Shown here: positions 10,404 to 48,309 of the stretch, piece by piece
How the letters are laid out: every line of letters starts with the position of its first letter
Numbering within the stretch: position 1 is the first letter of the stretch
Assembly: GCF_000245795.1 (NCBI RefSeq)
Contig: NZ_JH601133.1
Coordinates: forward strand, 1,071,387-1,135,386
DNA length: 64,000 nt
Direction of reading: 5' to 3'
DNA from: Facklamia languida CCUG 37842
GTDB taxonomy: Bacteria; Bacillota; Bacilli; Lactobacillales; Aerococcaceae
Position numbers and translations under genes: made by a program
The notes under the pieces: generated by a model
The model's input: the letters and a program-made list of their open reading frames with translations, nothing else
Told to the model about the DNA's origin: nothing
Databases searched by the model: none

Positions 10404-10416
10404 TAAAATTTTCTGA

Positions 10417-10522: not shown

Positions 10523-11617
10523 ATGACGCAAACACACTCTACCATATCTGATCGGAAATCAAAACACTTATCGTTCAAAGAACGGAGCCAAATTGAGCTT
10601 TTGAAAGAACAAGGGCATTCTAATAGAGCCAATGCTCGCATACTCAAACGTGCGCCACAGACAATCCATAACGAAATTAAACGTGGTACCATTAAACAAA
10701 TCCGACAACAAAAGCAAAACGGCAAGGTTTATAAATGGTACTATTCTAAGTATGTCGCTGAAGTCGGCCAAAAAAAATATGAGCATCAGCGTCAAAATTG
10801 TGGGCGCAAACCTCTCTGGTCCTACTCAAGCGACTTTATTGATTGGGCTGATCAGCGGATGTTAGATGATAAATGGTCGCCTGATGTCGTTGTCAACCGA
10901 GCCAAAGAAGTCCTTGATATCGACCATCGACTGATTCCTTGTACCACCACCCTCTATTATTGGATTGATTGTCAGATTATGAAGACTCGAAATATTGATT
11001 TACTTGAAAAACTTCGTCGTAATACTAAAGCTAGAGTACCGAAAACCCGCCCCCATAAGAAAGTCTTGGGAACTTCCATCGACGAGCGCCCTGAGGAAAT
11101 CAATGAGCGGAACACTTTTGGCCACTGGGAAATTGATACGGTCATTGGCAAGAAAGGTAAAGATGAACCCGTCTTGTTAACCTTAGCTGAACGATTCAGT
11201 CGATTTGAAGTTATTCTAAAGATAAAGAATAAGACTGCACAAGCGGTGGAGGTCGCCCTAAGAAAGTTACAAGGACTCGTAGGCGATCATTTATCGTTAC
11301 TCTTCAAGAGTATGACTGCTGATAATGGCTTAGAGTTTGCGACGTTAAGTCAAGCAGTAGCTGAACAAATAGCGGTCTACTTTGCCCATCCTTATGCCTC
11401 TTGGGAAAGAGGGACGAGTGAAAATCAACATGGATTCATTCGACGCTTCTTACCCAAAGAAACATCAATGAAAGATATAACAGAAGCGGATTGTCGCCGA
11501 ATTCGACAATGGATGAACAACTATCCACGCAAAATTTTAGACGATGAGACCCCTTATGAAGTCTTTGTACGCTGTTTACATAAAGAAAGACGATCTCAAA
11601 CACTCGTTCCGGCTTGA
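10523..11617 (+). CDS. IS30-family transposase
   Basis: 364 aa and apparently intact. The N-terminus has helix-turn-helix motifs for terminal-repeat binding (SFKERSQIELLKEQGHSNRA, then APQTIHNEIKRGT). The DDE/RNase-H domain shows HWEIDTVIGKKGKDEPV, the second Asp in MTADNGLEFA and the Glu in YASWERGTSENQHGFIRRFLP. The family transposes through linked-end intermediates. AAGGAGAATG upstream provides a ribosome site. Confidence 0.93.
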   Translation: MTQTHSTISDRKSKHLSFKERSQIELLKEQGHSNRANARILKRAPQTIHNEIKRGTIKQIRQQKQNGKVYKWYYSKYVAEVGQKKYEHQRQNCGRKPLWSYSSDFIDWADQRMLDDKWSPDVVVNRAKEVLDIDHRLIPCTTTLYYWIDCQIMKTRNIDLLEKLRRNTKARVPKTRPHKKVLGTSIDERPEEINERNTFGHWEIDTVIGKKGKDEPVLLTLAERFSRFEVILKIKNKTAQAVEVALRKLQGLVGDHLSLLFKSMTADNGLEFATLSQAVAEQIAVYFAHPYASWERGTSENQHGFIRRFLPKETSMKDITEADCRRIRQWMNNYPRKILDDETPYEVFVRCLHKERRSQTLVPA

Positions 11618-31204: not shown

Positions 31205-31954
31205 CTATTCAGAAGGTTGAGTAATGGAGGTTGTCATCTGAATCAGCGTGAAGGGATCCTTATGGGTGGTGATATAAACCACCTTGCCAATTTGCCAAGC
31301 CGCCACATTCTCTTCGAATGATTGATTATCTTTCAGCTTCAAATTGATTTGGCCCGCTGTTTCGGGGGCAGGGAGCAGGAATTTCTCGAGGTAGCTCACA
31401 ACCTCTTTACCTAAATGGGTCGGATCCTTGCCCTCTTGGTTAGCCGCTCGGATATTGAGGCTCCAATTGCCTTCCATCCAATCCAGATAAGACGACCCCA
31501 TTGCTCCACTTTGATAGCCTGTGATGCCATAACCCAGATCAATTGGTTCACCATTGAAATCTTTGATTTGTTTGATGGCAGCGATAGCCATTTCTTTATT
31601 GTCATATTCAATGCGCTGAAAGGAAGCGATCGGAACCTTCTGGTTCAGAATCGGATCATTGACTGAAATCGGGTCTTCTTCACTGTAATATAAGATTTTG
31701 AAGTTGTTTATATCAGTCGTTTCTGTGGTAGCAGCGGATAGGTAGCCTGGCATTTCAGGGGTTTGAATGAAATGAGGGAGGGCTTCGTTAGGAAAGTATG
31801 CTTGAAGTTCGTCGAGTACTTGTTGAACATGGGCTTCCACAGCGGTCTCTTCGGCAGCATGCAGGGTTCTTGGGCCTTGACTATTCGGTATAAAGGGAGT
31901 CGTAAAAGAGATCGAAAGTAGGCTGACTGTCAGATATTTCCAAAATCTTTTCAT
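31205..31954 (-). CDS. Secreted protein of unknown function
   Basis: About 249 aa. A signal peptide with hydrophobic core and LHAAEE cleavage region (about residues 34-37) indicates export; no lipobox is visible. The mature protein is mixed alpha/beta with no domain I can name; YQSGAMGSSYLDWMEGNWSL resembles the substrate-like lobes of DUF4367-type proteins, weakly. I chose ATG 31954 because AGGAGATGATCACA precedes it. It is the last gene before a strong terminator, 300 bases from the gene above, so it may have its own promoter. Confidence 0.7.
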   Translation of the reverse strand: MKRFWKYLTVSLLSISFTTPFIPNSQGPRTLHAAEETAVEAHVQQVLDELQAYFPNEALPHFIQTPEMPGYLSAATTETTDINNFKILYYSEEDPISVNDPILNQKVPIASFQRIEYDNKEMAIAAIKQIKDFNGEPIDLGYGITGYQSGAMGSSYLDWMEGNWSLNIRAANQEGKDPTHLGKEVVSYLEKFLLPAPETAGQINLKLKDNQSFEENVAAWQIGKVVYITTHKDPFTLIQMTTSITQPSE

Positions 31955-32261
31955 TGTGATCATCTCCTTATGCTTATTATAAGAAGATGGTCTTTTTTTA
32001 TCGAGACATGTGAACTTCCCAATAAGAAGATATCATGGTGAAAGCTAAGAATCAGTTAACCCTTAGGTCTTGCCGCTTATTGAACTTATTAAGCAAAACG
32101 GATTAAGTATCGCTAGAAGGTTATCACAATATTCAAAATTTATATAGCGTGTCATGAGGCCTTCACTACGATCCCAAAACTTTACTGAAGATGTAACCAC
32201 AGGGGTCTGTTAATTGACCCTTTCAAGCGAACAGGCACCATTTGTTGCCTATCGCTTTCTA

Positions 32262-33059
32262 TCAAAAATTTGGATAGCTTTTAGCTAAATCTTGAATTTC
32301 TTCTGCTGTCAGGTCTGCTTGATCAGTGTAATGGACCTGTTTGATGGATTGGATGATTTGCTTGTCTTGTTCGACTTGATAGGAAATCAGCTGGTGAGAG
32401 GTCTTGTCAAATTCAAAGGTCCAAATGCCATGATTATAAGGGGATAGGTCTTCAGGCATCTCCCCCTTGATCTGATAGGTCTGTTCTGCTTCGCTTAGGG
32501 TGGGATCCTTTAAGTCCGGTATACGAATTAAGAGGTCCATGAAGATTCCGCGAGGTTCGATCAAGTCCGCCATTTCTCCTTTTTGTTTATAGGGATCCAT
32601 TTCGGGTGCAGACATTTGGACATATTGACCGTCCAAATAGTAATTAAATTCAGTATTTCCCATTTGTAAGATTTCATAGAATAATCCCTTGGTTTTGTCA
32701 AACTTACCCGAGATAGCGGCCGATTCAGCTCCTTCAAAATGGGTCATCTCATAAGCATAATCCATTTGATCCTTATTAAAAGTCATTAAAGCATCAAAAA
32801 CGACTTGTCGAATGGTGGGGTCCATCTCTTTGGCTCGATCCTCATCCATACTCAAGACATAGGACAAGTAGGTCTGATTTTGTAAATAGGGTTCTTCTTT
32901 TGATTGGTTGGCAGAAATTTGTTGGACCGTTTCAATGGTCTCTTGCTGTGTTTGTTGGTCAACCTGGACATGGTAAAAGGCATAGCCTTCGTAAGCTATT
33001 AGTGGGATAGCGACTACCAGACTGGTGGTCAAGAGATAGCGTAAGGTTCTTTTTTTCAT
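32262..33059 (-). CDS. Membrane-anchored extracytoplasmic protein
   Basis: About 265 aa with one N-terminal hydrophobic segment (about residues 8-27), no clear cleavage site and no lipobox Cys, so likely a signal anchor. The outer domain (YYEIL-like strands, NTEFNYYLDGQYVQMSAPEM) suggests a LolA/LppX-like or DUF6612-like beta fold; this is a weak impression. ATG 33059 is supported by AAGGAGTG. It lies 32 bases after the preceding membrane gene and should be co-transcribed with it. Confidence 0.7.
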   Translation of the reverse strand: MKKRTLRYLLTTSLVVAIPLIAYEGYAFYHVQVDQQTQQETIETVQQISANQSKEEPYLQNQTYLSYVLSMDEDRAKEMDPTIRQVVFDALMTFNKDQMDYAYEMTHFEGAESAAISGKFDKTKGLFYEILQMGNTEFNYYLDGQYVQMSAPEMDPYKQKGEMADLIEPRGIFMDLLIRIPDLKDPTLSEAEQTYQIKGEMPEDLSPYNHGIWTFEFDKTSHQLISYQVEQDKQIIQSIKQVHYTDQADLTAEEIQDLAKSYPNF

Positions 33060-33091
33060 TACAGTCACTCCTTATTGTGAATATAACTAAA

Positions 33092-33775
33092 CTAATTTGC
33101 TTTCATTTTTAAGCGGGGCTGATACCAATATGCACTGTAAGCTAATGCAGTGATCAAGACCATCATTAGGAATCTGACCAGTAAAGTCCTAGCGGTCATC
33201 TGTGTGGAGGGATCCGTCATGATCCATTTAAAGCCAACTTGACTATAAAAACTATGCACAATGATGACTAAATTTACTACAAGTCCCAATATGCTATAAC
33301 CGAGGCAGTGAATGGTGGTCTGTAAGATCAACATTGACCAGAGCGTGATTACCAAATGGATGAAGAGGGAAAGAATAAAGGCAAGAGGCACTCCTTTATC
33401 TGCTTGAAAGAATAGGGCAAACAGAATCGATATGAAGACATAGGAGGCGCTATAGATTGCCATCCAAACTAAGCTTATGACAAACAAATGCCTAGGATGA
33501 CGAATCCGCACAAATTCAAAGGGACTTTCTTGGACTAAGACGTGTCCAAAGAAATTAAACGGGACCAATAAAGGGAAGATATTGAAGCTAAACCAATGCA
33601 TATTATTGGTCAGGGCGTTTCGATCGTGGATAGAAAAATAAGCCCAACCCCCTCCCTCGCCAATCATAAAGGAGAAGGTACTTAATAAGTAAATGACGAA
33701 CAAGACTCCAATAAAATAACGGAGTTGGAAGAGGCGATAGCGATTCATGCTTAAATAGTGGAGTGATTCTTTCAT
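33092..33775 (-). CDS. Polytopic membrane protein, ABC-2-permease-like (subunit C)
   Basis: 227 aa with about six membrane helices and short loops. FGHVLVQESPFEFVRIRHPRH after the second helix resembles the cytoplasmic elbow of ABC-2 type permeases. With two other polytopic proteins and one ATPase in the cluster, it may be part of an ABC export complex or an immunity protein. A purine-rich GGAAAGATCAT site precedes the ATG. No family name is certain. Confidence 0.65.
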   Translation of the reverse strand: MKESLHYLSMNRYRLFQLRYFIGVLFVIYLLSTFSFMIGEGGGWAYFSIHDRNALTNNMHWFSFNIFPLLVPFNFFGHVLVQESPFEFVRIRHPRHLFVISLVWMAIYSASYVFISILFALFFQADKGVPLAFILSLFIHLVITLWSMLILQTTIHCLGYSILGLVVNLVIIVHSFYSQVGFKWIMTDPSTQMTARTLLVRFLMMVLITALAYSAYWYQPRLKMKAN

Positions 33776-33815
33776 AATGATCTTTCCTTATTTGATTGAA
33801 AAGTAGTCAGTGCGT

Positions 33816-34493
33816 TTAAAGGATCGATTGTTGTTGGTGCATCAGGTACCGGTCCAGTTGGTAAGCAGGATATAAAATAAAGCCTATCTTGAGTAAGAGA
33901 TACACTAAGCCCCTCCAAGTCAGGGGATCACTTTCTTCAATGAAGATCAAAAAAACCGGGTTGAACATGAAGATTAATAATAAGGGGCTGAGGCCTAAAC
34001 TAATCAAGAGGGCTAATAAACGATGGTTCATTAAGGATTCCATTAAATGACATAAGACACCATAGAGGGTCAAGATGAGCAACTGTTGAACGGATGAATA
34101 TAAGATGTCCAGTAAGATAAATTCCTGGTCTGTCCAGATTAAATCCAATATCACGGATACCTCACTCAACAGAAACATCAAACCTAAACTCATTAGGAGG
34201 ATAATCCATTTATACCGACATTGTCGTTTAATTGAGAGGCGGACTTGTTCTAAATTTGTATAATAAGCCCTAAAAAGATAGACCAAGATTAATAAGGTCG
34301 GGACAGCAATCCATCTTACAAAATTGCTATCCATGGGCTGATTAATAATAATTTGATAAGGGATGGGTTTGAAGGGGGAATTTTTCAGACTGAAATAACC
34401 CCCAACAAGTAGCAAGAAAGCAACAGAGGTATAGAAAATAAGCCCTCTTTGCCAACAGATTCGGATCTTATCGTAGCAAATAACCCTAGTCAT
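33816..34493 (-). CDS. Polytopic membrane protein (subunit B)
   Basis: About 225 aa with about six membrane helices and basic cytoplasmic loops (KIRICWQRG, SIKRQCRYKW). I chose ATG 34493 since GGGGAG lies 7 bases upstream and it overlaps the previous stop by 8 bases (ATGACTAG), a sign of coupled translation. Context suggests a permease or assembly partner of the nearby ATPase. No conserved motif allows a name. Confidence 0.65.
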   Translation of the reverse strand: MTRVICYDKIRICWQRGLIFYTSVAFLLLVGGYFSLKNSPFKPIPYQIIINQPMDSNFVRWIAVPTLLILVYLFRAYYTNLEQVRLSIKRQCRYKWIILLMSLGLMFLLSEVSVILDLIWTDQEFILLDILYSSVQQLLILTLYGVLCHLMESLMNHRLLALLISLGLSPLLLIFMFNPVFLIFIEESDPLTWRGLVYLLLKIGFILYPAYQLDRYLMHQQQSIL

Positions 34494-34980
34494 GATTCCA
34501 CTCCCCACGGAAGCCAACATGTTGAAGGTCTTCCATCATAAAGTGACTAAAGGACAAAATCCATTCATTCTTACCAGGTTTAAAGGCCTCCTTAGGAAAG
34601 GCGAAGTATAAACGATAATTGTCGCCATCGACTTCACTCGCTGAGAAGATCGGCAAGGTCCGGTATTGCCGGTTAAATATGAGGCCAAAGCCCATATGCT
34701 TTTCTTTTGTATTAGAGAGAGGGCCCTCTAGCTCTACTTGGAAGATGAAATCTTCACCTGGGTTGAGAAAGCTAGCGTATTCTTCTTGGAACTGTTCTGT
34801 TTCCTGCTCATCTAATTGCCTAATTGAGTGCAGCTGATAGGGGTCCCCTTGCAGGGTAATGATCTCATCTGCTGCATATAAACGAGCGGTCACACCGGAT
34901 TGTGTTCGATTCACATAAATGATCCGAGTTAGGACGAGGGCAAGAAGTAGAATCGGCAAGATGATTTTATATTTTTTCAT
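34486..34980 (-). CDS. Membrane-anchored protein of unknown function
   Basis: 164 aa: a single N-terminal hydrophobic helix (residues 5-22) and a hydrophilic, probably beta-rich domain outside the membrane. It overlaps both neighbours (4 bases with the ATPase gene, 8 with the next), so it is firmly part of the operon. It might be an accessory or immunity component of the transporter. No known family recognised. Confidence 0.7.
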   Translation of the reverse strand: MKKYKIILPILLLALVLTRIIYVNRTQSGVTARLYAADEIITLQGDPYQLHSIRQLDEQETEQFQEEYASFLNPGEDFIFQVELEGPLSNTKEKHMGFGLIFNRQYRTLPIFSASEVDGDNYRLYFAFPKEAFKPGKNEWILSFSHFMMEDLQHVGFRGEWNHD

Positions 34981-35618
34981 CGTTGACCTCCTACAATCCG
35001 CCCATCCGCAATCTCGTAGATATGGTCGGAGACTGCTTGAATCAGTTGATCATCATGGCTAGCTATTAAGAAGCCTTTACCGAGGGATTTAATCTTTTGG
35101 ACGAAACCAATAAAGACCTTGACGGAATCCTTATCCAGACCGTTGGTTGGTTCATCAAGCAAGATCAAGGCTTGGTCTTCCATGAGGGCTTGAACGATGG
35201 CCAGTTTTTGCCGCATGCCAAGGGAATAGTTGGATACTTTGATATCTTTGTGTTGGTAGAGGTCTAAGTCTTTTAACAACGATAGGACCTGGTTTTCTTG
35301 GTAATTATCTTTTATAGATGCAAGGTATTTCAGATTCTCTAAGCCAGTAAAATGAGGAATGAAATCAGGATTCTCAATAATAACCCCGACATCAATGGGC
35401 AAGGGTTGGTTAAAGACAACGGGGTGGTCTTTTAGATAAACTTGGCCACTATTCAACCGCATGCTGGCGATAATCGTTCTTAATAACATTGTCTTGCCTG
35501 ATCCATTATGGCCAACCAAGCCCACCACTTCACCTTCGTTCACTACCAGGTCAACTTGGTCTAGGACTTGCTTTGAACCAAAAGACTTGGAGACTTTATT
35601 AACTTCTAATAAAACCAT
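34977..35618 (-). CDS. ABC transporter ATP-binding protein
   Basis: About 213 aa, a compact ABC-2 type ATPase. Walker A is GHNGSGKTML, the Q-loop region IIENPDFIP, the signature is the variant YSLGMRQKL, Walker B is LILLDEPTNGLD and the switch His is ASHD. ATG 35618 is preferred because AAGGAGTG lies just upstream; GTG 35627 would sit in that site. It lies 15 bases after the first permease and would energise export in this cluster. The Y-S-L-G-M signature is common in peptide and bacteriocin exporters. Confidence 0.9.
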   Translation of the reverse strand: MVLLEVNKVSKSFGSKQVLDQVDLVVNEGEVVGLVGHNGSGKTMLLRTIIASMRLNSGQVYLKDHPVVFNQPLPIDVGVIIENPDFIPHFTGLENLKYLASIKDNYQENQVLSLLKDLDLYQHKDIKVSNYSLGMRQKLAIVQALMEDQALILLDEPTNGLDKDSVKVFIGFVQKIKSLGKGFLIASHDDQLIQAVSDHIYEIADGRIVGGQR

Positions 35619-35633
35619 CTTCTTCACTCCTTC

Positions 35634-36440
35634 CTAGTCGACACCTAAGTTGCGATCGGATACCTTCCAATGAAATAAGATCCCAATCACTAGCACGATG
35701 ACGATCCAATAGGCAAGTGTCTGCATCCATAGAGGGCCATCCAGCATCGATAAATGAGAGAGGAGCATCATCGGAACTAAGTTCAAGTAATAAATCCCAA
35801 ACACGCCAAAGACAAGGGGGGTTAAAAAAATAACAGCAAAAGCAAAGAAATATTCAAAATACTTATAAGATATGAAGTATGAGACGACCAGGCCTAAACA
35901 GGTTAAAATCCCCGAAATCAGAAAGATCCACAGGCTGAGAAGTAACCATAAGGTGAAAGGATGGAGGGAATACAAGGTATACATCCAACCTGGCGAAAGA
36001 CTATTCAGCTGAGTGACAATCGGATCGGGTAAGGTCATGGGGTGTAGCATGAAGAATAGCACCGAACTGACTAGATAGGGACTGACCCCGGCTATCCCAC
36101 CACCGATAAAGGCCGTCAATAATTGTTGATAATAGTAAGACTTCCGACCAAACCGGACGGATTGGTTGAGAATGATCGACCGCCTTACATCTTCTCGGTA
36201 AAGGCCAGCTCCAAAGAAGGCGACCATAATCGGTAAGGTGATCGCATAGACTTCAGAGCCATAACCCGTATGGTCAAAGCAGAGTAACCGCACAAAGGCA
36301 GACGGTTCAAATAAATAATTAGGTCGATTATAGGTGTAAAATTGAATGGCACTGATCCCCAAAATATAAGTTAAGAGAATAAGACCATTTCGCTGCAGGA
36401 ACATGCGCTTCATATTTTCCTTAAATAAAGCCACGGACAT
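35634..36440 (-). CDS. ABC-2-like permease (subunit A)
   Basis: 268 aa with about six membrane helices. The elbow region GLYREDVRRSIILNQSVRFGRKSYYYQQ, between helices two and three, is the pattern of ABC-2 type bacteriocin or peptide transport permeases. GAGGAGGAGTCG precedes its ATG. It is the first membrane gene after the secreted DUF2712-like protein and is directly followed by the ATPase gene, so the two probably form the transporter core. Confidence 0.75.
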   Translation of the reverse strand: MSVALFKENMKRMFLQRNGLILLTYILGISAIQFYTYNRPNYLFEPSAFVRLLCFDHTGYGSEVYAITLPIMVAFFGAGLYREDVRRSIILNQSVRFGRKSYYYQQLLTAFIGGGIAGVSPYLVSSVLFFMLHPMTLPDPIVTQLNSLSPGWMYTLYSLHPFTLWLLLSLWIFLISGILTCLGLVVSYFISYKYFEYFFAFAVIFLTPLVFGVFGIYYLNLVPMMLLSHLSMLDGPLWMQTLAYWIVIVLVIGILFHWKVSDRNLGVD

Positions 36441-36524
36441 CGACTCCTCCTCAATAGGAAGGAGGCCATACGCAGATAAAATTAAAAATTAGAACGCACA
36501 GCCTCCTCGTTGACATTTTTATTA

Positions 36525-36926
36525 TTAAATACTATCTGGACTCCATACACCAGATACAGTTGATTTATTTACCCAATAGGGATTTTTGACACCTAATTTA
36601 CAGGAGGTATATCCCATCTCATTAATATATTGAGAAATATATGAGGATTGACCTGCTCCAATATCAACGTAAGCAGAATTCACATTTTGACCGTTGGGCC
36701 CTACCATGAAGCAAGTAACAGTACTAATATTATGAAGACTAAGTACTTTCACGTATGATGAGGTTGCATCCGTCTTGGGTCTTGAGTACGTATATTGAGG
36801 TTTAATTCCTCCTAAAGCAAAATGGAAACCAGTATCGCTATGATTATTAGCAGATACCAAACTAGTTGCACCTAAACCTAGGAGAGAAATAATAATTAAC
36901 AAAGATTTAATGAGTTTATTTTTCAA
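36525..36926 (-). CDS. Small secreted protein, DUF2712-like
   Basis: 133 aa. A cleavable signal peptide (core LIIISLLGLGATSL, cut after SLVSA at about 26) leaves a mature protein of about 107 residues with two Cys (TVTCFM, YTSCKL) that could form a disulfide outside the cell. DTGFHFALGG, YTYSRPKT and the ending VSGVWSPDS resemble DUF2712 proteins, which often precede ABC exporter genes and are suspected bacteriocin-like factors. It appears to start with TTG, with GGAAG 8 bases upstream. It is the first gene of the leftward cluster and is driven by the promoter with the C10 spacer. Confidence 0.7.
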   Translation of the reverse strand: MKNKLIKSLLIIISLLGLGATSLVSANNHSDTGFHFALGGIKPQYTYSRPKTDATSSYVKVLSLHNISTVTCFMVGPNGQNVNSAYVDIGAGQSSYISQYINEMGYTSCKLGVKNPYWVNKSTVSGVWSPDSI

Positions 36927-37030: not shown

Positions 37031-37059
37031 ATTATACTAAATACTGGGGGGGGGGACAA
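37031..37059 (-). promoter_or_regulatory. Promoter with a homopolymer spacer (candidate phase-variable switch)
   Basis: On the minus strand TTGTCC (37059-37054) and a perfect TATAAT (37036-37031) are 17 bp apart. Ten consecutive C (G on the + strand, 37046-37055) make up the last two bases of the -35 and eight of the 17 spacer bases. Gain or loss of one C would change spacing to 18 or 16 and alter promoter strength. The predicted start is about 100 bases before the DUF2712-like gene. Confidence 0.75.
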
Positions 37060-37324
37060 TAGTTTTTTGAAAATTGGCCGCCAAATCACAAATTTTGGCC
37101 GCGAAAGGAATTTTTATAGGAAGAACGGATAATTTATCGTCAGTTTGGTTGAAAGTTAGTGACTTTTATCTACTATCAGCTGATAGAGGAATAAGATGTC
37201 TTAAAGGTCGACATGGTTTCCTTCTTGACGCATTGAGTGAATCGCATTAGCATAGTAACAATGAATGAAGTGGTATTCATTACTTGAAAGTCCTGGTTTT
37301 GATCAGAAGTTGAGGAGGGTTAGA

Positions 37325-38591: not shown

Positions 38592-40355
38592 ATGTTACAA
38601 CTTGCGTTAACTCTTTTGTTTTATATGGTGATGGTGATTCCGGTTGGGTCTTATTTGTACCATATTGCAGCTGGTAAAAAGACATTTTTCGACCCGGTCT
38701 TTGATCGAATAGACCGTCTTATTTATAAGGTGAGTGGCATTGATCCGGGTAAAGAAATGAACTGGAGTCAATATGCTCTAGCTCTCATTGGGACCAATGC
38801 TGTTATGGTGCTGCTAGGATATATCGTCTTAAGGATACAAAGCATTTCGCTGTTTAATCCTAACGGGATTGGAGCGATGGAAGCCTCACTTTCATTCAAT
38901 ACGATTATTAGTTTTATGACAAACACCAACTTACAGCATTACTCAGGTGAATCGGGTCTGAGCTATCTTTCTCAGATGTTGGTGATTACTTTTATGATGT
39001 TTGTCTCAGCAGCGAGTGGTTATGCTGCTTGTATTGCATTTATCCGTGGTCTTGCAGGTAAGACTAAGTACAACGTAGGGAACTTTTTTTCAGACCTTGT
39101 ACGGATTACAACGCGCGTACTCCTTCCATTCTCATTGATTGGAGGATTAATGCTAGTTTGGCAAGGAGTGCCTCAAAACTTTAATGGGAATGTGATTGTC
39201 GATACGATAGAGGGGGCTAAACAGGTTATTGCAATGGGCCCAGTTGCTGCTGTTGAAATTATTAAACATCTCGGTACGAATGGTGGAGGGTTCATTGGAG
39301 CGAATTCTTCAACTCCGATCGAGAATCCAACAATGCTGACAAATTTAATCGAATTATATTCAATGATGTTGCTGCCGGGTGCTTGTGTGATTACTTTCGG
39401 TAAGATGGTCCGTGACCGGAAATTAGAAAAGAAATTGAAGAGTGGTCTCTTATCAGCAGATAGACAAGATTTACAGAGAAGTTTGACGGTTCGTTTATTT
39501 GGAAGTGAAGGTCGGACCATATTCGCAACGATGGGAGTGATCTTTCTAATTGGATTGGGTGTGTGCTTTTGGGCAGAGTCACAAGGGAATCCGTTACTTG
39601 CTGATTTAGGTCTTTCACAATCGATGGGAAGCATGGAGGGGAAAGAAGTCCGTTTTGGAGTCGCACAATCAGCCTTATTTACAACCACTACGACATCGTT
39701 TACAACCGGTACAGTCAATAACATGCATGATACTTTAACACCGATTGGTGGGATGGTTCCGCTTTTACATATGATGCTCAATGTGGTATTCGGGGGCAAG
39801 GGAGTCGGCTTGATGAACATGATTATGTATGCGGTTCTGGCTGTCTTCATTTGTGGACTGATGATAGGACGTACACCAGAATATCTTGGTAAGAAGATTG
39901 AAGGACGTGAGATGAAACTGACTGCGCTCTGTATCATCATTCATCCATTTTTAATTCTAGCTTTTTCTGCTTTGGCTATCGCCACGACGGGCGGTTTAGA
40001 AGGCATTACCAATTCGGGCTTCCACGGACTTTCCCAAGTGCTTTATGAGTTTTCATCTTCGGCTGCAAATAACGGATCGGGTTTTGAGGGATTGGCTGAT
40101 AATACAATCTTTTGGAATATTACCACCGGTCTAGCTATGTTCTTTGGACGTTATTTGTCGATCGTGATTCAGCTTGCGATAGCGGGATCCATGATGAAGA
40201 AGAATTTTGTTAATGACTCCGTAGGGGCTCTGCATACCGATACAGTGGCATTCCCAATGATACTTGTTGTTGTTGTCTATATTTTTGCTGCACTAACGTT
40301 CTTCCCAGTGCTTGCACTCGGACCGATTGCAGAACATTTAACGCTTTGGATGTAG
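38592..40355 (+). CDS. kdpA: Potassium-transporting ATPase potassium-binding subunit KdpA
   Basis: 587-aa, ten-helix membrane protein of the K+ transporter superfamily, which forms the selectivity filter of the high-affinity pump. Filter-like loops include FMTNTNLQHYSGES, GTNGGGFIGANSS, NNMHDTLTPIGG and SAANNGSGF, in the expected order. AAAGGAAGAAG precedes the ATG. It is followed 12 bases later by kdpB. Length and motif order are normal. Confidence 0.97.
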   Translation: MLQLALTLLFYMVMVIPVGSYLYHIAAGKKTFFDPVFDRIDRLIYKVSGIDPGKEMNWSQYALALIGTNAVMVLLGYIVLRIQSISLFNPNGIGAMEASLSFNTIISFMTNTNLQHYSGESGLSYLSQMLVITFMMFVSAASGYAACIAFIRGLAGKTKYNVGNFFSDLVRITTRVLLPFSLIGGLMLVWQGVPQNFNGNVIVDTIEGAKQVIAMGPVAAVEIIKHLGTNGGGFIGANSSTPIENPTMLTNLIELYSMMLLPGACVITFGKMVRDRKLEKKLKSGLLSADRQDLQRSLTVRLFGSEGRTIFATMGVIFLIGLGVCFWAESQGNPLLADLGLSQSMGSMEGKEVRFGVAQSALFTTTTTSFTTGTVNNMHDTLTPIGGMVPLLHMMLNVVFGGKGVGLMNMIMYAVLAVFICGLMIGRTPEYLGKKIEGREMKLTALCIIIHPFLILAFSALAIATTGGLEGITNSGFHGLSQVLYEFSSSAANNGSGFEGLADNTIFWNITTGLAMFFGRYLSIVIQLAIAGSMMKKNFVNDSVGALHTDTVAFPMILVVVVYIFAALTFFPVLALGPIAEHLTLWM

Positions 40356-40367
40356 GAAGGGAAAGTT

Positions 40368-42425
40368 ATGATGACCAAAAAACACAATAAGAAGTTGATT
40401 TCTCCCCAAATTTTGAAGCAGGCGATAATTGGCTCCTTTATAAAGTTAAATCCGCGATACATGATGAAGAATCCTGTGATGTTTGTGGTAGAAGTAGGAT
40501 GTTTCATTACCCTGCTTTTATCTTTCTTCCCAGGCCTATTTGGTGACGCGGCAACGGATGATCAACAAATCTACAATATGATTGTTTGCGCTGTATTATT
40601 TGTCACAGTCTTGTTTGCTAATTTTGCAGAATCTGTAGCAGAAGGAAGAGGAAAAGCCCAGGCAGCGAATTTGAAGAGAACACAAAAGGATACCATTGCA
40701 CATCTCTTGGGTGAAGATGGAAAGATGCGTGAAATTCATTCAGGCGAATTGAAAAAAGGGGACCTCGTGATGGTTTCTGCGGGCGAAATCATTCCGGGTG
40801 ATGGTGAAGTGATTGAAGGAATTGCTTCCGTCGATGAATCCGCCATAACAGGTGAATCCGCTCCCGTTGTTAGAGAGTCTGGAGGAGACTTCAGTTCAGT
40901 TACAGGAGGGACGATGGTGATCTCGGACTGGTTAAAAATTCGGATTACATCTGATCCTGGTAACAGTTTCTTGGAACGGATGATTGCTCTGGTTGAAGGC
41001 GCTTCTCGAAAGAAAACACCCAATGAAATTGCGTTGAATACTTTGCTGGTTTCGTTGACGATTATTTTCTTAATTGTTATTGTGACCCTTTATCCAATTG
41101 GTCAGTACTCGGGTGTTCAGCTTTATGTTTCGACCTTGATTGCCTTAGCAGTCTGCTTGATCCCAACAACGATCGGTGGCTTACTTTCGGCAATTGGGAT
41201 TGCGGGGATGGACCGAGTGACCCGTTTCAATGTCATCGCGATGTCTGGAAAGGCAGTAGAGGCTTGTGGGGATGTCGACACGATGATTCTGGATAAGACT
41301 GGAACCATTACTTATGGGAATCGTCTAGCGGCTGATTTTATTCCAGTAGAGGGTGCAGACCGTAAGGAACTCATCCATCATGCAGCTTTAACTTGTTTTC
41401 ATGATGATACCCCAGAAGGAAAGTCCACCTTGGAACTTGCTCGTCGAATGGGAGACAGTAGTAATGAAATTCCTGGGACTCGCTTTATCGAATTTACAGC
41501 TCAGACAAGAATGAGTGGTGTGGACTTGCCTGACGGAACAAAAATTCGTAAAGGGGCTTCGGATGCAATTGAAAAGTTTGTAACGGAATTAGGAGGGAAG
41601 CTTCCAAATGATCTAAGAGAAGCGGTCGAAAGAGTTTCAAGTTTAGGTGGTACACCACTGACCGTTTGTGAAAATAATCGTGTTTTAGGTGTCATTTATT
41701 TGAAGGATACGGTAAAAGAAGGTATGGCAGAGCGCTTTGAACGCCTACATGCGATAGGAATAAAGACCATTATGTGTACGGGTGATAATCCCTTAACAGC
41801 TGCAACAATAGCAAAAGAAGCGGGTGTTGATGGATTCATTGCAGAATGTAAACCGGAAGATAAGATTGAAGTCATCAAGAAGGAACAAGCAGAAGGCAAA
41901 GTGGTTGCCATGACGGGAGACGGGACAAATGATGCTCCAGCACTTGCTCAAGCCAATGTCGGATTAGCCATGAACAGTGGAACAACAGCTGCTAAGGAAG
42001 CGGCCAATATGGTCGATCTTGATTCGGATCCGACTAAGATTCTGGAGGTCGTGGAAATCGGTAAGCAGTTGCTCATCACCCGCGGCAGTCTCACGACATT
42101 TTCGATTGCAAATGATATTGCAAAATACTTTGCGATTATCCCTGCCATGTTCATGCAAGCAATTCCGGAGTTAAATGTCTTGAATATCATGAACCTTGCG
42201 ACTCCAAACACAGCGATACTATCCGCTTTGATTTTTAATGCCTTGATCATTCCTTGCTTAATCCCATTGGCTATGAAGGGTGTTCAGTACCGTCCTATGT
42301 CTTCGGGCAAATTACTACTACGTAACATGATGATTTTCGGTGTGGGTGGGATCATTACCCCATTTATCGGGATTAAATTAATCGACATGCTCCTTTATCC
42401 CTTATTGGGTTCATTGGGTATGTAA
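40368..42425 (+). CDS. kdpB: Potassium-transporting ATPase ATP-binding subunit KdpB
   Basis: 685-aa P-type ATPase that powers KdpA. It shows TGESAPV (actuator), [10 protein letters not shown] (phosphorylated Asp), [10 protein letters not shown] in the nucleotide-binding domain, CTGDNPLTA and [11 protein letters not shown]. The characteristic Kdp region [20 protein letters not shown] follows. KdpB couples ATP hydrolysis to ion passage through KdpA. It lies 14 bases before kdpC and is intact. Confidence 0.97.
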
Positions 42426-42439
42426 AGGAGGAAATCGTG

Positions 42440-43102
42440 ATGAATAAAAAAATTAAAACTTTATTTCATGGGGGCCGTCAAGCATTCTCGGTCTCTCTTG
42501 TCCTAATGGTCATTTGTGGATTTCTTTTCCCAATTCTTTTGACAGGACTTTCGGCAATCTTTTTCCCTTACCAAGCAGAAGGAAGCCTATTGAAGGTTAA
42601 AGATAAGGCTGTTGCATCCGAAAATGTGGGACAAGAATTTTTGGAGGATTATTATATGTGGAGTCGTCCGTCGGCCTACCACTATAATGTGTATACGGAA
42701 AATAAAGAAGGCGATAAAAGGTATCAAGATGGGAGTGAATTTCCGGGAATCGCTTCAGGATCGAACAACTATGCCCCTTCTAATCCTGACTTAATCAAGC
42801 GCGTTGAAGCAGATATGCAGGACTTCCTAGATAAGAACAAAGGGATTCAGCCTGAGGATATCCCGACGGATCTGTTGACAGCTTCTGGGTCTGGACTAGA
42901 TCCGCATATTTCACCTGAATCAGCAAGGATTCAAATCCCTCGGATCGTGGAGGCTTCTGGATTAAGCAAAGCACTTGTTCAAAACATTATCAAGAAGCAT
43001 ACAGATGAAAAATTATTAGGGGTTATGGGAGAAGAAAGTGTCAATGTCGTGAAGGTAAATATTGAGATTGCTAAGGAAATGGGCTTAATTCAGGATGAAT
43101 AG
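42440..43102 (+). CDS. kdpC: Potassium-transporting ATPase subunit KdpC
   Basis: About 220 aa with one N-terminal membrane helix (about residues 18-40) and an extracytoplasmic domain containing SRPSAYHYN and GSGLDPHISPESARIQIPRI, the conserved KdpC core. It stabilises the KdpABC complex. ATG 42440 follows GGAGGAAATC by the right distance; GTG 42437 is an alternative. Confidence 0.95.
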   Translation: MNKKIKTLFHGGRQAFSVSLVLMVICGFLFPILLTGLSAIFFPYQAEGSLLKVKDKAVASENVGQEFLEDYYMWSRPSAYHYNVYTENKEGDKRYQDGSEFPGIASGSNNYAPSNPDLIKRVEADMQDFLDKNKGIQPEDIPTDLLTASGSGLDPHISPESARIQIPRIVEASGLSKALVQNIIKKHTDEKLLGVMGEESVNVVKVNIEIAKEMGLIQDE

Positions 43103-43135
43103 AGGCATTCTTTGACCAAAAAGGAGGTGAAAGAG

Positions 43136-44029
43136 ATGTTGTTGCGACCCTATCAAGAAGCCTCTAAGACGGTGATTCAAATAAAGAGAGCAGATGATAC
43201 AATAAGCCCTGGTCAGGAACTATTGGCTATCTTATGTGATTTCAATGAGTGGCTAGGAATTACCGACACACAAGCTTGTATCTGCGAATCGACCGATGAG
43301 ACAACGCTCTATATTTTTTATCGGGATGTTGCCTTTGACATTGCAGATTTTTGGGATCTCTTTGCCTTACGAATGGCCAAGATTAACCAGATTTGGGGTT
43401 TATGTGTCTTTGGAACAACAGACCGTCAAGACTCGATTCGATTATTTGCTGACTTAGTAGGATCATCTCTGGAACTGGGACAACAGACTATCTCTGGGAA
43501 TCGGTCGGAGGTGGTTTGGACACCTTGTTTTCAAGTCCTTTGCAATGACAAAGAGACTGCTGAGGGGCTGATGGAATTACTTGAGACGCTCAACTGGTCG
43601 CTAGGTGTTGCTGCTATGCGTTGGGAAAAAACAAACTTTGTTAAGCAGCAAGATTTGGTCTTGTTGCCCCAAAGTCGCACCTATTTTTGCTATGCGGGCT
43701 TGCAAAATTATCTTGATTCAAAAGATTTATTGGAGTCTTTGAGCTTCAACCAAAAGATAGACCTTTGGAAGAGTTTTTTGCGAGATGGCATCGAAACTAC
43801 TGAGTTTGAATGGTTACAACATTCAATTGGTCAAGATTGCCTAAACAACCGGATGGAATGGGAACTCTCCTTGCATGAATCCATGAAGCAGCTAGGCTTT
43901 CATATGACCAATCAAAATCATCAGTTTGAGCTCTATGACCAAACAGGTGAAAGATGCTACTTCGGTGCGAATAGCCAGCGACCTGCTGAATGGGCTTTTA
44001 TCAAAATTCTGTTTCCAATCAATGATTAA
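43136..44029 (+). CDS. Unknown soluble protein encoded in the kdp locus
   Basis: 297 aa, no signal or membrane segment. I recognise no domain. The middle is rich in aromatic residues, and the C-terminus ends AEWAFIKILFPIND. ATG 43136 is chosen because AAAGGAGGTG lies just upstream; the longer TTG frame would contain that site. It follows kdpC by 33 bases and precedes the CBS-domain gene and kdpDE, so it is probably co-regulated with potassium uptake. Function is unknown. Confidence 0.7.
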   Translation: MLLRPYQEASKTVIQIKRADDTISPGQELLAILCDFNEWLGITDTQACICESTDETTLYIFYRDVAFDIADFWDLFALRMAKINQIWGLCVFGTTDRQDSIRLFADLVGSSLELGQQTISGNRSEVVWTPCFQVLCNDKETAEGLMELLETLNWSLGVAAMRWEKTNFVKQQDLVLLPQSRTYFCYAGLQNYLDSKDLLESLSFNQKIDLWKSFLRDGIETTEFEWLQHSIGQDCLNNRMEWELSLHESMKQLGFHMTNQNHQFELYDQTGERCYFGANSQRPAEWAFIKILFPIND

Positions 44030-44288
44030 ACCTCTTGTCCAGGTTGGTACAACATGACTAGGCAAACGGGACAAATACGTGTATGATCGTCTCAAAATAA
44101 TAAGAATTTCCCAGTGAAATCCTTGTTAAAAGGATATTTTCTACCTGCCTTCCACTTTCTCCGTTTATTAGTCTCCTTGGTCTGTCCCTTGACATTTAAC
44201 TGTAGAATTTCATGGTAACTGGCTTGAAAAGGGATCATTGAGTCGATATTCTGTATACAATAAAGGTCTAAAAGAAAGGAGACAAAAG

Positions 44289-44705
44289 GTGAAGCCGTCT
44301 CAAGTTAATATCGTTAAAATGATGATTCCAAAAGTCTCAATTGCTTTGTTACATGTAAATGATACGGTGCGCCAGGGGTTAGAGGTGATGCGTTATCATG
44401 GATACACAGCCATACCTGTTGTGGATGACAAGGAGGGCTACTTAGGTAGCGTGACCGAGGGGGATTTTCTCCGCCATATTCTTACAACAGGTAAGTCCGA
44501 TTTAAAGAGTCACGAGCAATACCGGATAGGGGAAATCTTTCGAAAAGATTTTTGTAAACCTCTCCCTATTTACGCCCCTCTCAATGAGCTGGTTTCAGTA
44601 TCCTTCGAACAAAATTTTATTCCAATTGTCGATGATCGCAATAGTTTTTGTGGGATTGTGACGAGAAGGTCTCTTATTGAAGCCTTATATCTGGATGAAT
44701 TTTAA
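44289..44705 (+). CDS. CBS-pair protein resembling DarB/CbpB
   Basis: 138 aa, two CBS domains (about 1-70 and 75-138). HGYTAIPVVDD in the first and GIVTRRSLIEAL in the second match the regions that contact c-di-AMP in Bacillus DarB and Listeria CbpB (Y-T-A and T-R-R). GTG 44289 is preferred because AAAGGAGACAAAAG lies just upstream; a TTG at 44238 gives a longer form. Its place between kdpABC and kdpDE suggests a second-messenger link to potassium control. Confidence 0.75.
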   Translation: MKPSQVNIVKMMIPKVSIALLHVNDTVRQGLEVMRYHGYTAIPVVDDKEGYLGSVTEGDFLRHILTTGKSDLKSHEQYRIGEIFRKDFCKPLPIYAPLNELVSVSFEQNFIPIVDDRNSFCGIVTRRSLIEALYLDEF

Positions 44706-44912
44706 TTCTCTGGGACAAATTATCTAAACAAGCTTTATTTAATGAGCTTTCTGTTTGGTTCATCTTGCTTCTTTGATTGAAGAGGGTGACAGGCTTTGGT
44801 GAAGTGATCTTTCAAATGGGTTTATAAGGCAGGTCGCATTTAAAGGGTTGGCTCAAGTGTTTTAATGTCATGACAGATTGGCATCACATATCGCTTTTTA
44901 GGGGGGGATTAT

Positions 44913-47615
44913 TTGGAACATTCGAATCATACGCCAGAGCAATTGCTCAAGGTTATTCAGGAGGAAGAAAAGAATAAAGAACTGGGCCAGTTAAAAATTT
45001 TTTTTGGTTATGCTGCTGGAGTTGGAAAGACGTACGCAATGCTTGAAGCAGCTCATTTGGCAAAAGAGCGTGGAATGGATGTGGTGATTGGGTATATCGA
45101 ACCCCATACCCGCCCCAAAACTATGGCCCTCCTGCGAGGACTCGAACAGCTGCCCAATTTGCAGATAGCCTACAATGGGATCCGCCTTCGTGAATTTGAC
45201 CTAGATGCGGCACTTCAAAGAAAACCTGAAATTGTGATTGTCGATGAATTGGCTCATACCAATGCGGTTGGCTGTCGTCATGAGAAGCGGTATCAAGATA
45301 TTGAAGAATTATTAAATGCAGGCATCGATGTTTATACAACCATTAATGTTCAACATATTGAAAGTTTGAATGATACGGTCTCATCCATCACAGGTGTCAG
45401 GGTGCGAGAACGAATACCGGATTTTGTTTTTGACCGTGCGGACCAGGTGGAATTGGTCGATATTGAGCCCCAAGATTTGATTGACCGTTTTCAAGAGGGA
45501 GACGTCTATAAAGAACACCAGGCGAGACAGGCTCTTCAAAATTTCTTTTCAATTAAGAATTTAACTGCCTTAAGAGAAATCGCAATGCGGCGGTGTGCCG
45601 ATAAGGTCAATCGGTTGACCGAAAGTGCCAATATCACGAACCTCTCGGATTATCATACGGATGAGCATATCCTTGTATGCCTGTCGCCTTCACCATCGAA
45701 TGCCAAAGTCATTCGAACGGCTGCTCGCATGGCAAATGCTTTCAAAGGCATTTTTACAGCGCTCTATGTCGAAACACCTGAATTTGCTGATATGAGTGAT
45801 CAGAATCAAAAGCGCTTTCGTGCCAATATGCACCTGGCAGAACAGCTAGGCGCTACCATTGAGACGGTTTATGGGGAAGACATTCCTTTTCAAATTGCAG
45901 AGTTTGCCCGGCTATCCGGTGTCTCTCAGATTGTCATCGGACGTAGTGCCGCTATAAAAAAGAAATTTCTTGGCCAAAAAACACTGGTCGAAAAACTAAT
46001 ATCTGATGTCCCCAATATGGATGTTCATATTATTCCAGACATCATTTCGGCTGATTCCTTTTATCGCCTATTAAAGATAAGAATGAAGGTTGATCTTCAC
46101 TTTTCGCCTTTAGACCTACTTAAAAGTGTCGTAATTTTATTAGCAAGTAGCTTGATCGGCTTCGTGTTTCAGAGGTTTGGCTTTGTCGAAGCAAACATTA
46201 TCATTGTGTATGTGCTTGGGGTCCTCCTCATCTCGGTGGTCACCAAGAATCGGGTTTACAGTTTAATTTCCTCAGTTGTCAGTGTTCTCTTGTTTAATTT
46301 CCTTTTCACTGATCCCAAATATACCTTTCAAGCCACTGGCCAGGGTTATCCGGTAACCTTTATCATTATGTTTTTAGCTGCTTTTATAACCAGCTCTTTA
46401 GCCCTACAATTGCAGCGGAACACTTTGCAGTCTGCTAAGGCTGCTTATCGGATCAAAGTGTTATTTGATACCAACCAACTCCTCCAGAAGGCATCTGATA
46501 AGGAGGAAATTGTATCAACAGCGGCTAGCCAGTTAAATAAATTACTCGGTAAAGACATTATTATTTATTTAGTAGATAACAACATGCTTGGGGCACCGAT
46601 GTTTTTTTCCTTACAGGAAAAGCCAGTGACTCCCGAATTGATATCGAATAACGAAAAGGCGGTCGCCAGTTGGGTCCTTAAAAATAACAAGCATGCTGGA
46701 ACGACGACGAGGACCTTCTCCAATGCTCTGGCCAGATATTTAGCCGTCCGGGTGAATGATCGGGTCTATGGTGTAGTGGGTATTGTGATGAGGGAAGAGC
46801 CTTTAGACACCTTTGAGAATAGTATCCTACTCTCTCTTTTAGGTGAGTTCGCTCTATCATTAGAGAATGAACACAATGCTAGGGAAAAAGAAGCTGCTAA
46901 GATTCTCGCCAAGAATGAGCAGTTGCGAGCCAATATTCTTCGGACCATCTCTCATGATTTGAGAACACCTCTAACTTCTATTTCTGGAAATGCAAGTAAT
47001 CTGATTTCGAATAGTGAAGGCTTTGATGATGAAACGAAAAAGCAGTTATACAAAGATATTTATGACGATTCCATGTGGCTCATCAATCTGGTTGAAAACT
47101 TGCTGACTGTGACTCGGATTGAAGAAGGGCGGATGAACCTTCGAATCACTGAGGATTTGGTTGAGGACGCAGTCGCAGAAGCGCTTCAATTTATCAATCG
47201 AAAGAGTGAAGGCCACTCGATTCGAGTTGAACACAAAGAAGATTACCTACTGGCTAAAATGGATATCCGATTGATTGTACAAGTGATCATTAATATTTTG
47301 GATAATGCTATTAAATATACGCCCAAAGATTCCCATATCGTGATTAAAACAGAAAAACACGGCGATAAAGCAGTCATATCCATCGCAGATGATGGTGAAG
47401 GTCTCTCAGATGAAAGTAAGAAAAGAGTGTTTGACCGGTTCTATAATGGATCGAACACTCTGGCTGATAGCCGCAGAAGTCTTGGGTTAGGCTTGTCACT
47501 TTGTCAGTCGATTGTCAATGCTCATGGTGGAGAAATCTTTGTGAGGGACAATCAGCCACATGGTACAGTGTTTACCTTTACATTACCCACAGGGGAGGTG
47601 CAAATTCATGAATAA
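44913..47615 (+). CDS. kdpD: Sensor histidine kinase KdpD
   Basis: 900 aa. The N-terminal KdpD domain has Walker A GYAAGVGKTYAM (about residue 32); the USP-like domain follows (about 250-370), then four membrane helices (about 400-505), a GAF-like region, the histidine in ISHDLRTPLTS and the ATPase domain (NILDNAIKYTP, DDGEGL, LGLGLSL). The USP segment has S-P-S, 20 residues, then FTALY, the S-x-S-X20-FTAxY motif linked to c-di-AMP binding in Staphylococcus aureus KdpD. TTG start with a strong GGGGGGG site. It overlaps kdpE by 8 bases. Confidence 0.95.
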   Translation: MEHSNHTPEQLLKVIQEEEKNKELGQLKIFFGYAAGVGKTYAMLEAAHLAKERGMDVVIGYIEPHTRPKTMALLRGLEQLPNLQIAYNGIRLREFDLDAALQRKPEIVIVDELAHTNAVGCRHEKRYQDIEELLNAGIDVYTTINVQHIESLNDTVSSITGVRVRERIPDFVFDRADQVELVDIEPQDLIDRFQEGDVYKEHQARQALQNFFSIKNLTALREIAMRRCADKVNRLTESANITNLSDYHTDEHILVCLSPSPSNAKVIRTAARMANAFKGIFTALYVETPEFADMSDQNQKRFRANMHLAEQLGATIETVYGEDIPFQIAEFARLSGVSQIVIGRSAAIKKKFLGQKTLVEKLISDVPNMDVHIIPDIISADSFYRLLKIRMKVDLHFSPLDLLKSVVILLASSLIGFVFQRFGFVEANIIIVYVLGVLLISVVTKNRVYSLISSVVSVLLFNFLFTDPKYTFQATGQGYPVTFIIMFLAAFITSSLALQLQRNTLQSAKAAYRIKVLFDTNQLLQKASDKEEIVSTAASQLNKLLGKDIIIYLVDNNMLGAPMFFSLQEKPVTPELISNNEKAVASWVLKNNKHAGTTTRTFSNALARYLAVRVNDRVYGVVGIVMREEPLDTFENSILLSLLGEFALSLENEHNAREKEAAKILAKNEQLRANILRTISHDLRTPLTSISGNASNLISNSEGFDDETKKQLYKDIYDDSMWLINLVENLLTVTRIEEGRMNLRITEDLVEDAVAEALQFINRKSEGHSIRVEHKEDYLLAKMDIRLIVQVIINILDNAIKYTPKDSHIVIKTEKHGDKAVISIADDGEGLSDESKKRVFDRFYNGSNTLADSRRSLGLGLSLCQSIVNAHGGEIFVRDNQPHGTVFTFTLPTGEVQIHE

Positions 47616-48309
47616 CTCATTGATCCTAGTTGTAGAAGATGATACATCAGTGAGAAATTTGATCACAACAACCCTCAAAGCGCATAATTATCGTTTTTTG
47701 ACCGCCTATAATGGCTCCTCAGCAATCGCTGAAGCTTCTTCTCACAATCCCGATATCGTCTTGCTAGATCTAGGTCTACCCGATATGGATGGGGTTGAAA
47801 TTATTCAAACGATTCGGTCCTGGTCGAACATGCCAATTATCGTGATCAGTGCACGTAGTGAGGATAGTGATAAGATCAATGCACTTGATGCAGGGGCGGA
47901 CGACTATCTAACAAAACCTTTTTCTGTGGAAGAATTACTGGCCAGGATCCGTGTCACTCAGAGACGTCTTCCCATAATGCAACGGAGTTCCTCAGAAGAA
48001 ACGTCTGTCTTTGTGAATGGAGACTTGCGATTAGACTATGCCGCTGGATGTGTCTTCCTTAATGAAGAAGAATTGCACTTGACACCGATTGAGTACAAAT
48101 TACTTTGCTTGCTGGCCAAACATGTTGGGAAGGTCTTGACGCATACCTTTATTACGCAAGCGATTTGGGGGAGAAGTTGGGATAATGATATTGCTTCTTT
48201 GCGGGTATTTATGGCCACACTGCGCAAAAAAATTGAAAACCAGGCGAATTCGCCGCAATATATCCAAACCCATATTGGTGTCGGCTACCGCATGATGAAG
48301 GTAGAATAA
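47608..48309 (+). CDS. kdpE: Response regulator KdpE
   Basis: 233-aa OmpR-family regulator that activates kdpFABC under low potassium or osmotic stress. The receiver Asp is in VLLDLGLPDMDG, the Lys in YLTKPFS, and the winged helix ends HIGVGYRMM. ATG 47608 overlaps the kdpD stop (ATGAATAA) with GGGGAGGTG before it. It is the last gene of the locus. Confidence 0.95.
   Translation: MNNSLILVVEDDTSVRNLITTTLKAHNYRFLTAYNGSSAIAEASSHNPDIVLLDLGLPDMDGVEIIQTIRSWSNMPIIVISARSEDSDKINALDAGADDYLTKPFSVEELLARIRVTQRRLPIMQRSSSEETSVFVNGDLRLDYAAGCVFLNEEELHLTPIEYKLLCLLAKHVGKVLTHTFITQAIWGRSWDNDIASLRVFMATLRKKIENQANSPQYIQTHIGVGYRMMKVE

Follow-up and report, generated by a model that had tools for sequence, protein, structure and literature searches.

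The locus described here raises the question of what a compact series of genes for a small secreted protein and a transporter does for the cell that carries it. The window, i.e., the whole stretch of 64,000 nucleotides analyzed (Facklamia languida CCUG 37842, contig NZ_JH601133.1, positions 1,071,387–1,135,386), contains eight relevant open reading frames (ORFs) on its minus strand, and seven of them (A–G, 36926–32262) are closely packed, with intergenic distances of −35 to +84 bp. Their order is A–TM1–ATPase–D–TM2–TM3–G, in which A is a secreted DUF2712-family protein, TM1, TM2, and TM3 are the predicted transmembrane (TM) permease subunits B, E, and F, the ATPase is C, and D and G are anchored proteins. 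The first-pass annotation had placed these ORFs correctly but counted eight of them in the run; the run comprises seven, and H, the eighth, lies 298 bp beyond G. Comparison of sequences indicates that A–G is one real unit, more than a chance assembly, and a role in antagonism is plausible from its context.

The evidence for a unit comes from searches led by A, which are independent of the transporter except for L024 and L025, first met through B. The Pfam model for DUF2712 (PF10916) matched 9 of 295 genomes of the order, 3 of 398 genomes of the class (two of them counted before among the order genomes), and 15 of 397 in the order of G580. When genomes of named species were scanned with six aligned DUF2712 proteins, 36 loci emerged, including ones in Listeria, Vagococcus, Enterococcus, Lactiplantibacillus, Bacillus-group genera, and Clostridia. 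A profile of the subgroup whose proteins end in GVWSPDS (the WSPDS loci) found matches in 25 of 375 order genomes, i.e., 28 matches besides the four loci from which it was built; 20 of these were examined, and in every case A has an ATPase (broken in L178) and polytopic proteins as neighbors. Together, the A-family searches yielded 72 distinct loci, nearly all from Bacilli and Clostridia, after removal of L098, L068, and L088 (copies of L062, L067, and L027), further duplicates (L035, L049, L051, L056, L089, L093–L095, and L100), the loci without an A match (L023 and L140–L142), and the window itself. With L064, L066, and L069 set aside as contig ends, 69 testable loci remain, broken genes being counted as matches. 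An ATPase lies near A (E-value under 1e-40, within 7 kb) in 69 of 69, and all three permeases with the ATPase are found in 61, where the permease and ATPase profiles had been built by position from 40 of the counted loci, so that matches there arise partly by construction. With the whole set returning at 61 of the 69 loci when A leads the search, the unit is more than chance; the conserved co-occurrence of subunits that the first-pass annotation had named as a test is thus borne out.

Gene order is also largely fixed. Among the 61 full loci, 54 have A–TM1–TM2–TM3–ATPase on one strand, four have A last, and three are rearranged, the latter including L024 and L025, close relatives of the window. 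The eight loci short of three permease matches include L065 and L174–L176, which carry three polytopic ORFs (in L174–L176, the transporter is on the strand opposite to A), and L181 and L182, which show two. Three polytopic proteins with one ATPase, earlier considered unusual, are therefore the rule for this cassette. It is hardly credible, then, that the genes are unrelated neighbors pointing in the same direction, each from a separate housekeeping family: the recurrence of the set in both Bacilli and Clostridia refutes this for A–C, E, and F. It does describe H, whose family occurs in 32 of 148 order genomes and is absent beside L023, L024, and L025, and on these grounds H was rejected as a member of the unit.

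Direct searches of Pfam and NCBIfam gave nothing above cut-off for B, D, E, F, or G, and to that extent the earlier statement that no protein but the ATPase can be firmly assigned to a family is correct; profile–profile comparison, however, places B, E, and F. With hhalign, B (35634–36440, 268 residues) reached 98.3 against canonical TM1, F (33092–33775, 227 residues, DUF2705 type) reached 90.8 against TM3 (E-value 1.2e-6), and E (33816–34493, WxPxxD type) reached 74.1 against TM2 (E-value 2.8e-5). E is the weakest of these predicted assignments, because it reached 2.2 against the TM2 profile of the WSPDS loci, while B and F reached 99.8 (E-value 2.2e-29) and 94.3 (E-value 1e-7) against the corresponding profiles. 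The WSPDS cassettes match the canonical ones subunit by subunit, with values of 99.8 for TM1, 97.6 for TM2, 98.9 for TM3, and 89.6 for the one-TM protein, and the canonical TM1, TM2, and TM3 are mutually related (85–96). In the canonical locus L036, TM3 is a DUF2705 protein (5.7e-42) and TM2 a WxPxxD_TM protein (NF035952, 1.5e-70). The ORF of E opens at 34520, but the start at 34493 is more likely because GGGGAG precedes the ATG there; as judged by eye, a plausible ribosome-binding site precedes every gene from A to G except E at its longer start.

The ATPase C (34977–35627, 216 residues) matches the cassette ATPase profile (sATP) at 4e-69 over 0.98 of its length. Its closest NCBIfam model is TIGR03740, a lantibiotic-protection ATPase, at 135.6 bits, below the cut-off of 309.75. 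D (34486–34980, 164 residues) is a one-helix anchored extracytoplasmic protein with the position and topology of the canonical one-TM protein, although homology is not demonstrated by profile comparison (11.7 and 33.8). B, E, and F have no Pfam match at an E-value of 1, so there is no seven-TM DUF1430 partner, and no Pfam match to lantibiotic enzymes was obtained among the eight window genes. The five accessory envelope proteins proposed in the first reading were too many: H stands outside the unit, B, E, and F form the core transporter, and D and G are the accessories.

Protein A (36525–36926, 133 residues, TTG start) had been called DUF2712-like, and PF10916 agrees, with 36.8 bits over a cut-off of 22. 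The match aligns residues 69–132 of A with profile positions 42–111; positions 1–41 lie outside it, yet that part aligns in a 28-row alignment of the A family. As judged by eye, A starts with a Sec-type signal ending LVSA/NNHSDT; for the mature protein, a seven-stranded β-sandwich is predicted, with a mean predicted local distance difference test (pLDDT) value of 86.8. Its C-terminus is GVWSPDS, in contrast to WDEET in canonical DUF2712 proteins. The GVWSPDS subgroup is scored weakly or missed by the Pfam model, and the G202 copy has no PF10916 match. A has no sequence relative in the PDB at an E-value of 10. Foldseek and VIA-align comparisons of the model retrieved mixed β-sandwiches (PirA, XepA, GOLD, and CBM), with Z up to 8.6. 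Lactococcin 972 (2LGN) was not among the structural matches listed for A, which excludes nothing.

Relatives of the cassette are found in settings typical of bacteriocins. In G167, it lies beside an operon encoding a mediterrocin-family secreted protein (NF052268, 122.5 bits, cut-off 40). In front of each of the two operons stand genes for a small exported peptide, an AgrC-like kinase, and a response regulator; identity between the two copies is 60% for the kinase and 35% for the response regulator, and a LytTR domain was confirmed in the cassette's regulator. Genes of agrB or comQPA type also occur near L039, L042, L040, and L071. At L025 61–5494, the mediterrocin-family operon directly beside the DUF2712 cassette is made up of genes for the bacteriocin together with a 650-residue membrane protein, a 59-residue exported peptide, an AgrC-like kinase, a response regulator, and an ATPase near L_ocin_972_ABC (223.8 bits, cut-off 254.85). 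A second small ABC (ATP-binding cassette) system was seen near the DUF2712 cassette in Terribacillus and G580 (L057 1815–4780 and L071 12537–15410), consisting of a protein of about 260 residues with five to six TM helices, one of about 490 residues with 10 to 11, and an ATPase.

The control genome of Bacillus subtilis matches PF10916 and NF035952. We take YybN to be the DUF2712 protein of this species, whose form of the cassette is presumably the Rok-repressed yybN operon. In one study, the yybN operon stands in the table of Rok targets with sboA-alb, sunA, yydHIJ, and sdpABC, besides comK and others (PMC2978689), and another describes its function as unknown (PMC11841835). A published model presents YybJ2KL as an exporter whose function is unknown, in which YybJ is combined with YybK and YybL and the third permease is left out (PMC11466899). 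The literature search returned no paper naming DUF2712, and DUF2705 was not named among the matches listed. To call the system undescribed was nonetheless too strong, since DUF2712, DUF2705, and WxPxxD are annotated, the yybN operon is a published Rok target, and YybJ2KL has been modelled.

Upstream of A lies a predicted promoter, TTGTCC-N17-TATAAT (37031–37059, minus strand), and just upstream of it a putative LytTR-type direct-repeat operator, GGCCAA-N15-GGCCAA, with a 21-bp period (37074–37100, minus strand). The sister-species ortholog L023 has TTGTCA-N17-TAAGAT, without a C-tract, at the matching place, and the promoter call in the window is therefore supported; the distance from the start of the last repeat to the promoter is 21 bp in L023 and 20 bp in the window. 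The operator motif has one match in the window and none in 100 shuffles. Among 188 loci, it occurs in six, four of which are copies of the locus in the window and the other two L020/L023, the ortholog in the sister species; L024 has two GGCCAA motifs 32 bp apart. According to PMC6193735, LytTR regulators bind 9-bp repeats 12 bp apart, located 4–11 bp from the −35 element in Streptococcus mutans; in lactic acid bacteria, repeats so spaced near −35 drive the promoters of bacteriocin genes. In the window, the second GGCCAA ends 14 bp before −35, somewhat beyond the S. mutans range. Genes with a LytTR domain stand beside both G202 copies (L023 and L024), and the only match to these two regulators in the window's genome is G000:C1:1480490, about 370 kb from the window copy.

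The same promoter contains a C10 tract (37046–37055, minus strand) that covers the last two bases of the −35 hexamer and eight of the 17 spacer bases, and it is a candidate phase-variation switch. No other G/C run in the genome of 1,717,767 bases is nine or longer; a first-order Markov model expects 3.6 runs of at least nine and 0.84 of at least ten. The length of the run is therefore unremarkable; what is unusual is its position in a promoter, the chance of that position being about 17 in 1.7 million by our own arithmetic, made after the tract had been noticed. The tract, read from a single assembly, suggests phase variation. The first-pass annotation had mentioned neither this tract nor the operator. 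Homopolymeric tracts between −10 and −35 are described for porA, fetA, and opc of Neisseria in PMC2791445.

We infer from these observations a system in which A is a Sec-exported β-sandwich bacteriocin-like protein and the ABC complex protects its producer; taken whole, with killing, protection, the identity of the regulator, and switching, this reading is about evenly poised between right and wrong. A would be exported by Sec, lose its signal peptide, and fold outside the cell as a small β-sandwich, where it would act against Gram-positive competitors, probably at the envelope. C would power a complex of the permeases B, E, and F, and this complex may protect the producer by expelling A or by undoing its effect on the membrane. 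Protection of the producer is more likely than export of A because A has its own Sec-type signal. Transcription would start from the promoter just downstream of the LytTR-type repeat, on which the product of the LytTR-like gene at G000:C1:1480490 might act in trans; if the C10 tract slipped, the −35/−10 spacing would change and with it the expression level. The bacteriocin-like reading is favored because of the linkage of A with the transporter, the match of B, E, and F to TM1, TM2, and TM3, the Sec signal, the β-sandwich model, the neighbors in G167, the regulators nearby, the use of LytTR repeats at bacteriocin promoters, and the Rok table. The patchy spread (9/295 order genomes, 15/397 in the order of G580, 3/76 family genomes for B, and two Priestia plasmids) was likewise counted for antagonism. 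By analogy, the best reading of its working mode is one like that of lactococcin 972 and mediterrocin, but with A outside that family; direct descent of A from lactococcin 972 finds no support at the sequence level.

Several observations weigh against this picture. A has no NCBIfam match at an E-value of 1, and its PDB matches are, for a predicted model, at the level of common β-sandwiches and too mixed for a family name. B, E, and F of the window clade show no relation to one another (hhalign at most 12.3, from four-row profiles). Of 48 DUF2712 loci, 7 have a regulator of the Agr, Com, or LytTR type no further than 6.5 kb away, a count for which the queries came from six of those seven loci and which has no background control; the 20 WSPDS loci gave a single match to the regulator queries, a polyprenyl-synthase-like one, and no LytTR regulator gene adjoins the window copy. 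Finally, seven loci (L026, L027, L033, L054, L168, L171, and L178) combine an intact A with a broken permease or ATPase gene, which would not be expected if A were lethal; three of them sit in genomes of less than 90% completeness. The transporter is intact and A lost or broken in six (L023, L032, L062, L067, L099, and L140), so the asymmetry of decay between toxin and immunity, 6 versus 7, is not clean and not decisive.

Those seven loci are as expected of a harmless A, and they introduce a different explanation, a dedicated secretion system in which the ABC complex releases, folds, or positions A, itself a non-lethal surface or matrix protein, an adhesin, or a signal. A and the transporter are almost never apart, the structural neighbors of A include carbohydrate-binding and other surface β-sandwiches, and tract-based switching is typical of surface antigens, with porA, fetA, and opc as examples (PMC2791445). 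Nevertheless, with a Sec-type signal of its own A does not obviously need a second exporter, and the settings in G167 and in the Rok table are those of bacteriocins; a secretion role is conceivable, if somewhat unlikely. The transporter might instead be a detoxification module against the peptides of others, like lantibiotic-protection pumps, with A as a sensor or decoy. TIGR03740 being the closest model to C, albeit at 135.6 bits and below cut-off, and the transporter copies without A (L023 and L140) speak for such a module, whereas the distribution of its permeases does not: among 299 genomes, 11 have a WxPxxD permease above the cut-off, and A is matched at nine of the loci (broken in G812), L141 stops at a contig end, and only L140 is clearly without A. 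We regard detoxification as improbable.

The two cassettes without A differ in detail. L023 (5431–10413, G202), with a LytTR gene before B, is nearer to the window cassette than any other ortholog (75% identity for B and 86% for C). In L140, other small ORFs, perhaps a broken gene, occupy the place of A at 10400–11578.

Protein G (32262–33068), the last gene of the run, is N-terminally anchored and has a predicted fold like that of LolA, LppX, and LprG. Overall confidence in the model is low (mean pLDDT 60.9), though its core is better. Its structural matches were led by 4mxt (Z 12.1, root-mean-square deviation (RMSD) 4.7, 164 aligned), followed by LprF (11.4) and LprG (11.2); those to LolA, LprF, LprG, and LppX span Z 12.1 to 11.2 with RMSD values of 3.8–4.7, and 16 of the top 17 structural rows are named LolA, LppX, LprF/G, or RseB/MucB, the remaining one being uncharacterized. 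The fold suggests that G may be a carrier or lipid-binding protein. In the bacteriocin-like system, the LolA-like G and the anchored D would sit at the outer face of the membrane and there take up or shield A or a lipid target. Among the loci examined, G is confined to the window clade (the window, L023, L024, and L025) and a second locus of the same genome. This second, incomplete locus (L190 4533–6604, G000:C1:1480532–1482603) contains a LytTR-like gene (Pfam LytTR 15.9 bits, below the cut-off of 22.6), an E-like gene with five TM helices (29% identical), and a G-like gene (32%). It has its own GGCCAA-N15-GGCCAA at 5136, inside the 3′ end of the LytTR-like ORF, after which the E-like and G-like genes follow; no match to A, TM1, TM3, or D was found in it.

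At the other edge, H (31205–31963, minus strand) belongs to a secreted or lipoprotein-like family and has no Pfam or NCBIfam match at an E-value of 1. It has its own promoter-like site at 32004–31976, and an 8-pair terminator-like hairpin stands behind it at 31141–31123, in a region whose promoter-like (17 versus 20.9) and terminator-like sites (6 versus 7.2) are not above those in shuffles. Among the 32 genomes with H, G000 and G026 alone recur in the match lists of the A family; in G026 (L032), H lies downstream of a cassette with a broken A, which looks like coincidence.

The window also holds kdpA, kdpB, and kdpC, then kdpD and an ORF related to the kdpD-adjacent gene of relatives (38592–48309). 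In G138 and G244, kdpD and its neighbor precede kdpA; with this flank arranged differently, no empty site can be defined. The G+C content of the cassette is 40.7%, versus 39.3% for the window. A mobile or phage origin was considered and rejected, no viral contig containing B and no plasmid containing A. Canonical DUF2712 occurs on three plasmid records, one being a Listeria record of 2.9 Mb, and, among phages, in two unannotated Listeria records. Two Priestia plasmids are annotated with DUF2712, DUF2705 or a hypothetical protein, WxPxxD, DUF2705, an ABC ATPase, and a hypothetical protein. Anti-phage defense was also set aside; the matches obtained were for C alone, to models that bear an ATPase.

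Collectively, the data describe a conserved five- to six-gene unit of Bacilli and Clostridia without an assigned function, in which, at 61 of 69 testable loci, a third permease belongs with YybJ, YybK, and YybL. Its presence in B. subtilis 168 makes the question directly testable there. If antagonism is true, the unit would add a bacteriocin class with an unusual immunity complex, and if the C-tract varies, it would provide such a system with a phase-variable promoter in a Gram-positive bacterium. A wider proposal, which we consider doubtful, is that DUF2712 proteins form a new, widespread class of Sec-exported β-sandwich bacteriocins, with a three-permease immunity complex that hands its cargo to extracytoplasmic carriers (LolA-like in this clade), and that in this species a poly-C tract in the spacer of an operator-controlled promoter turns production on and off at random, dividing a clone into producers and non-producers.

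Among known systems, LanFEG-type transporters, which have two permeases, resemble the window in their small separate permease subunits and in the likeness of the ATPase to TIGR03740; the window has three permeases, and C, with 135.6 of the 309.75 bits required, is far below that cut-off. The LytTR systems of lactic acid bacteria (PMC6193735) share direct repeats of 21-bp period just upstream of −35, whereas the window copy is without a neighboring LytTR gene. The porA, fetA, and opc promoters likewise have a homopolymer between −35 and −10 (PMC2791445); the window differs in its Gram-positive host and in the operator beside the promoter.

The operons of lactococcin 972 and mediterrocin are comparable in plan. 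According to PMC8538875 and PMC12345188, a small Sec-exported protein is encoded next to a presumed immunity membrane protein and an ABC ATPase, as in the operon of A, and the predicted structure of mediterrocin resembles lactococcin 972. Mediterrocin has been purified and is active as a bacteriocin; its precursor has 114 residues and a Sec signal, and the cluster also encodes an ATPase and a membrane protein that probably confers immunity (PMC12345188). By contrast, A matches neither TIGR01653 nor NF052268, and three separate permeases stand in place of one seven-TM DUF1430 protein. The closest counterpart is the yybN operon, with a secreted DUF2712 protein, three related membrane proteins, and one ATPase; the published set of yybN, yybM, yybL, and yybK with the ATPase YybJ fits the canonical order (PMC11466899 and PMC2978689). 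The window cassette differs from it in the GVWSPDS end of A and in the C10 promoter tract. Within a family that is annotated but uncharacterized, what is new in the window is the added LolA-like gene, the shuffled order, the LytTR-type operator, and the candidate phase-variable promoter.

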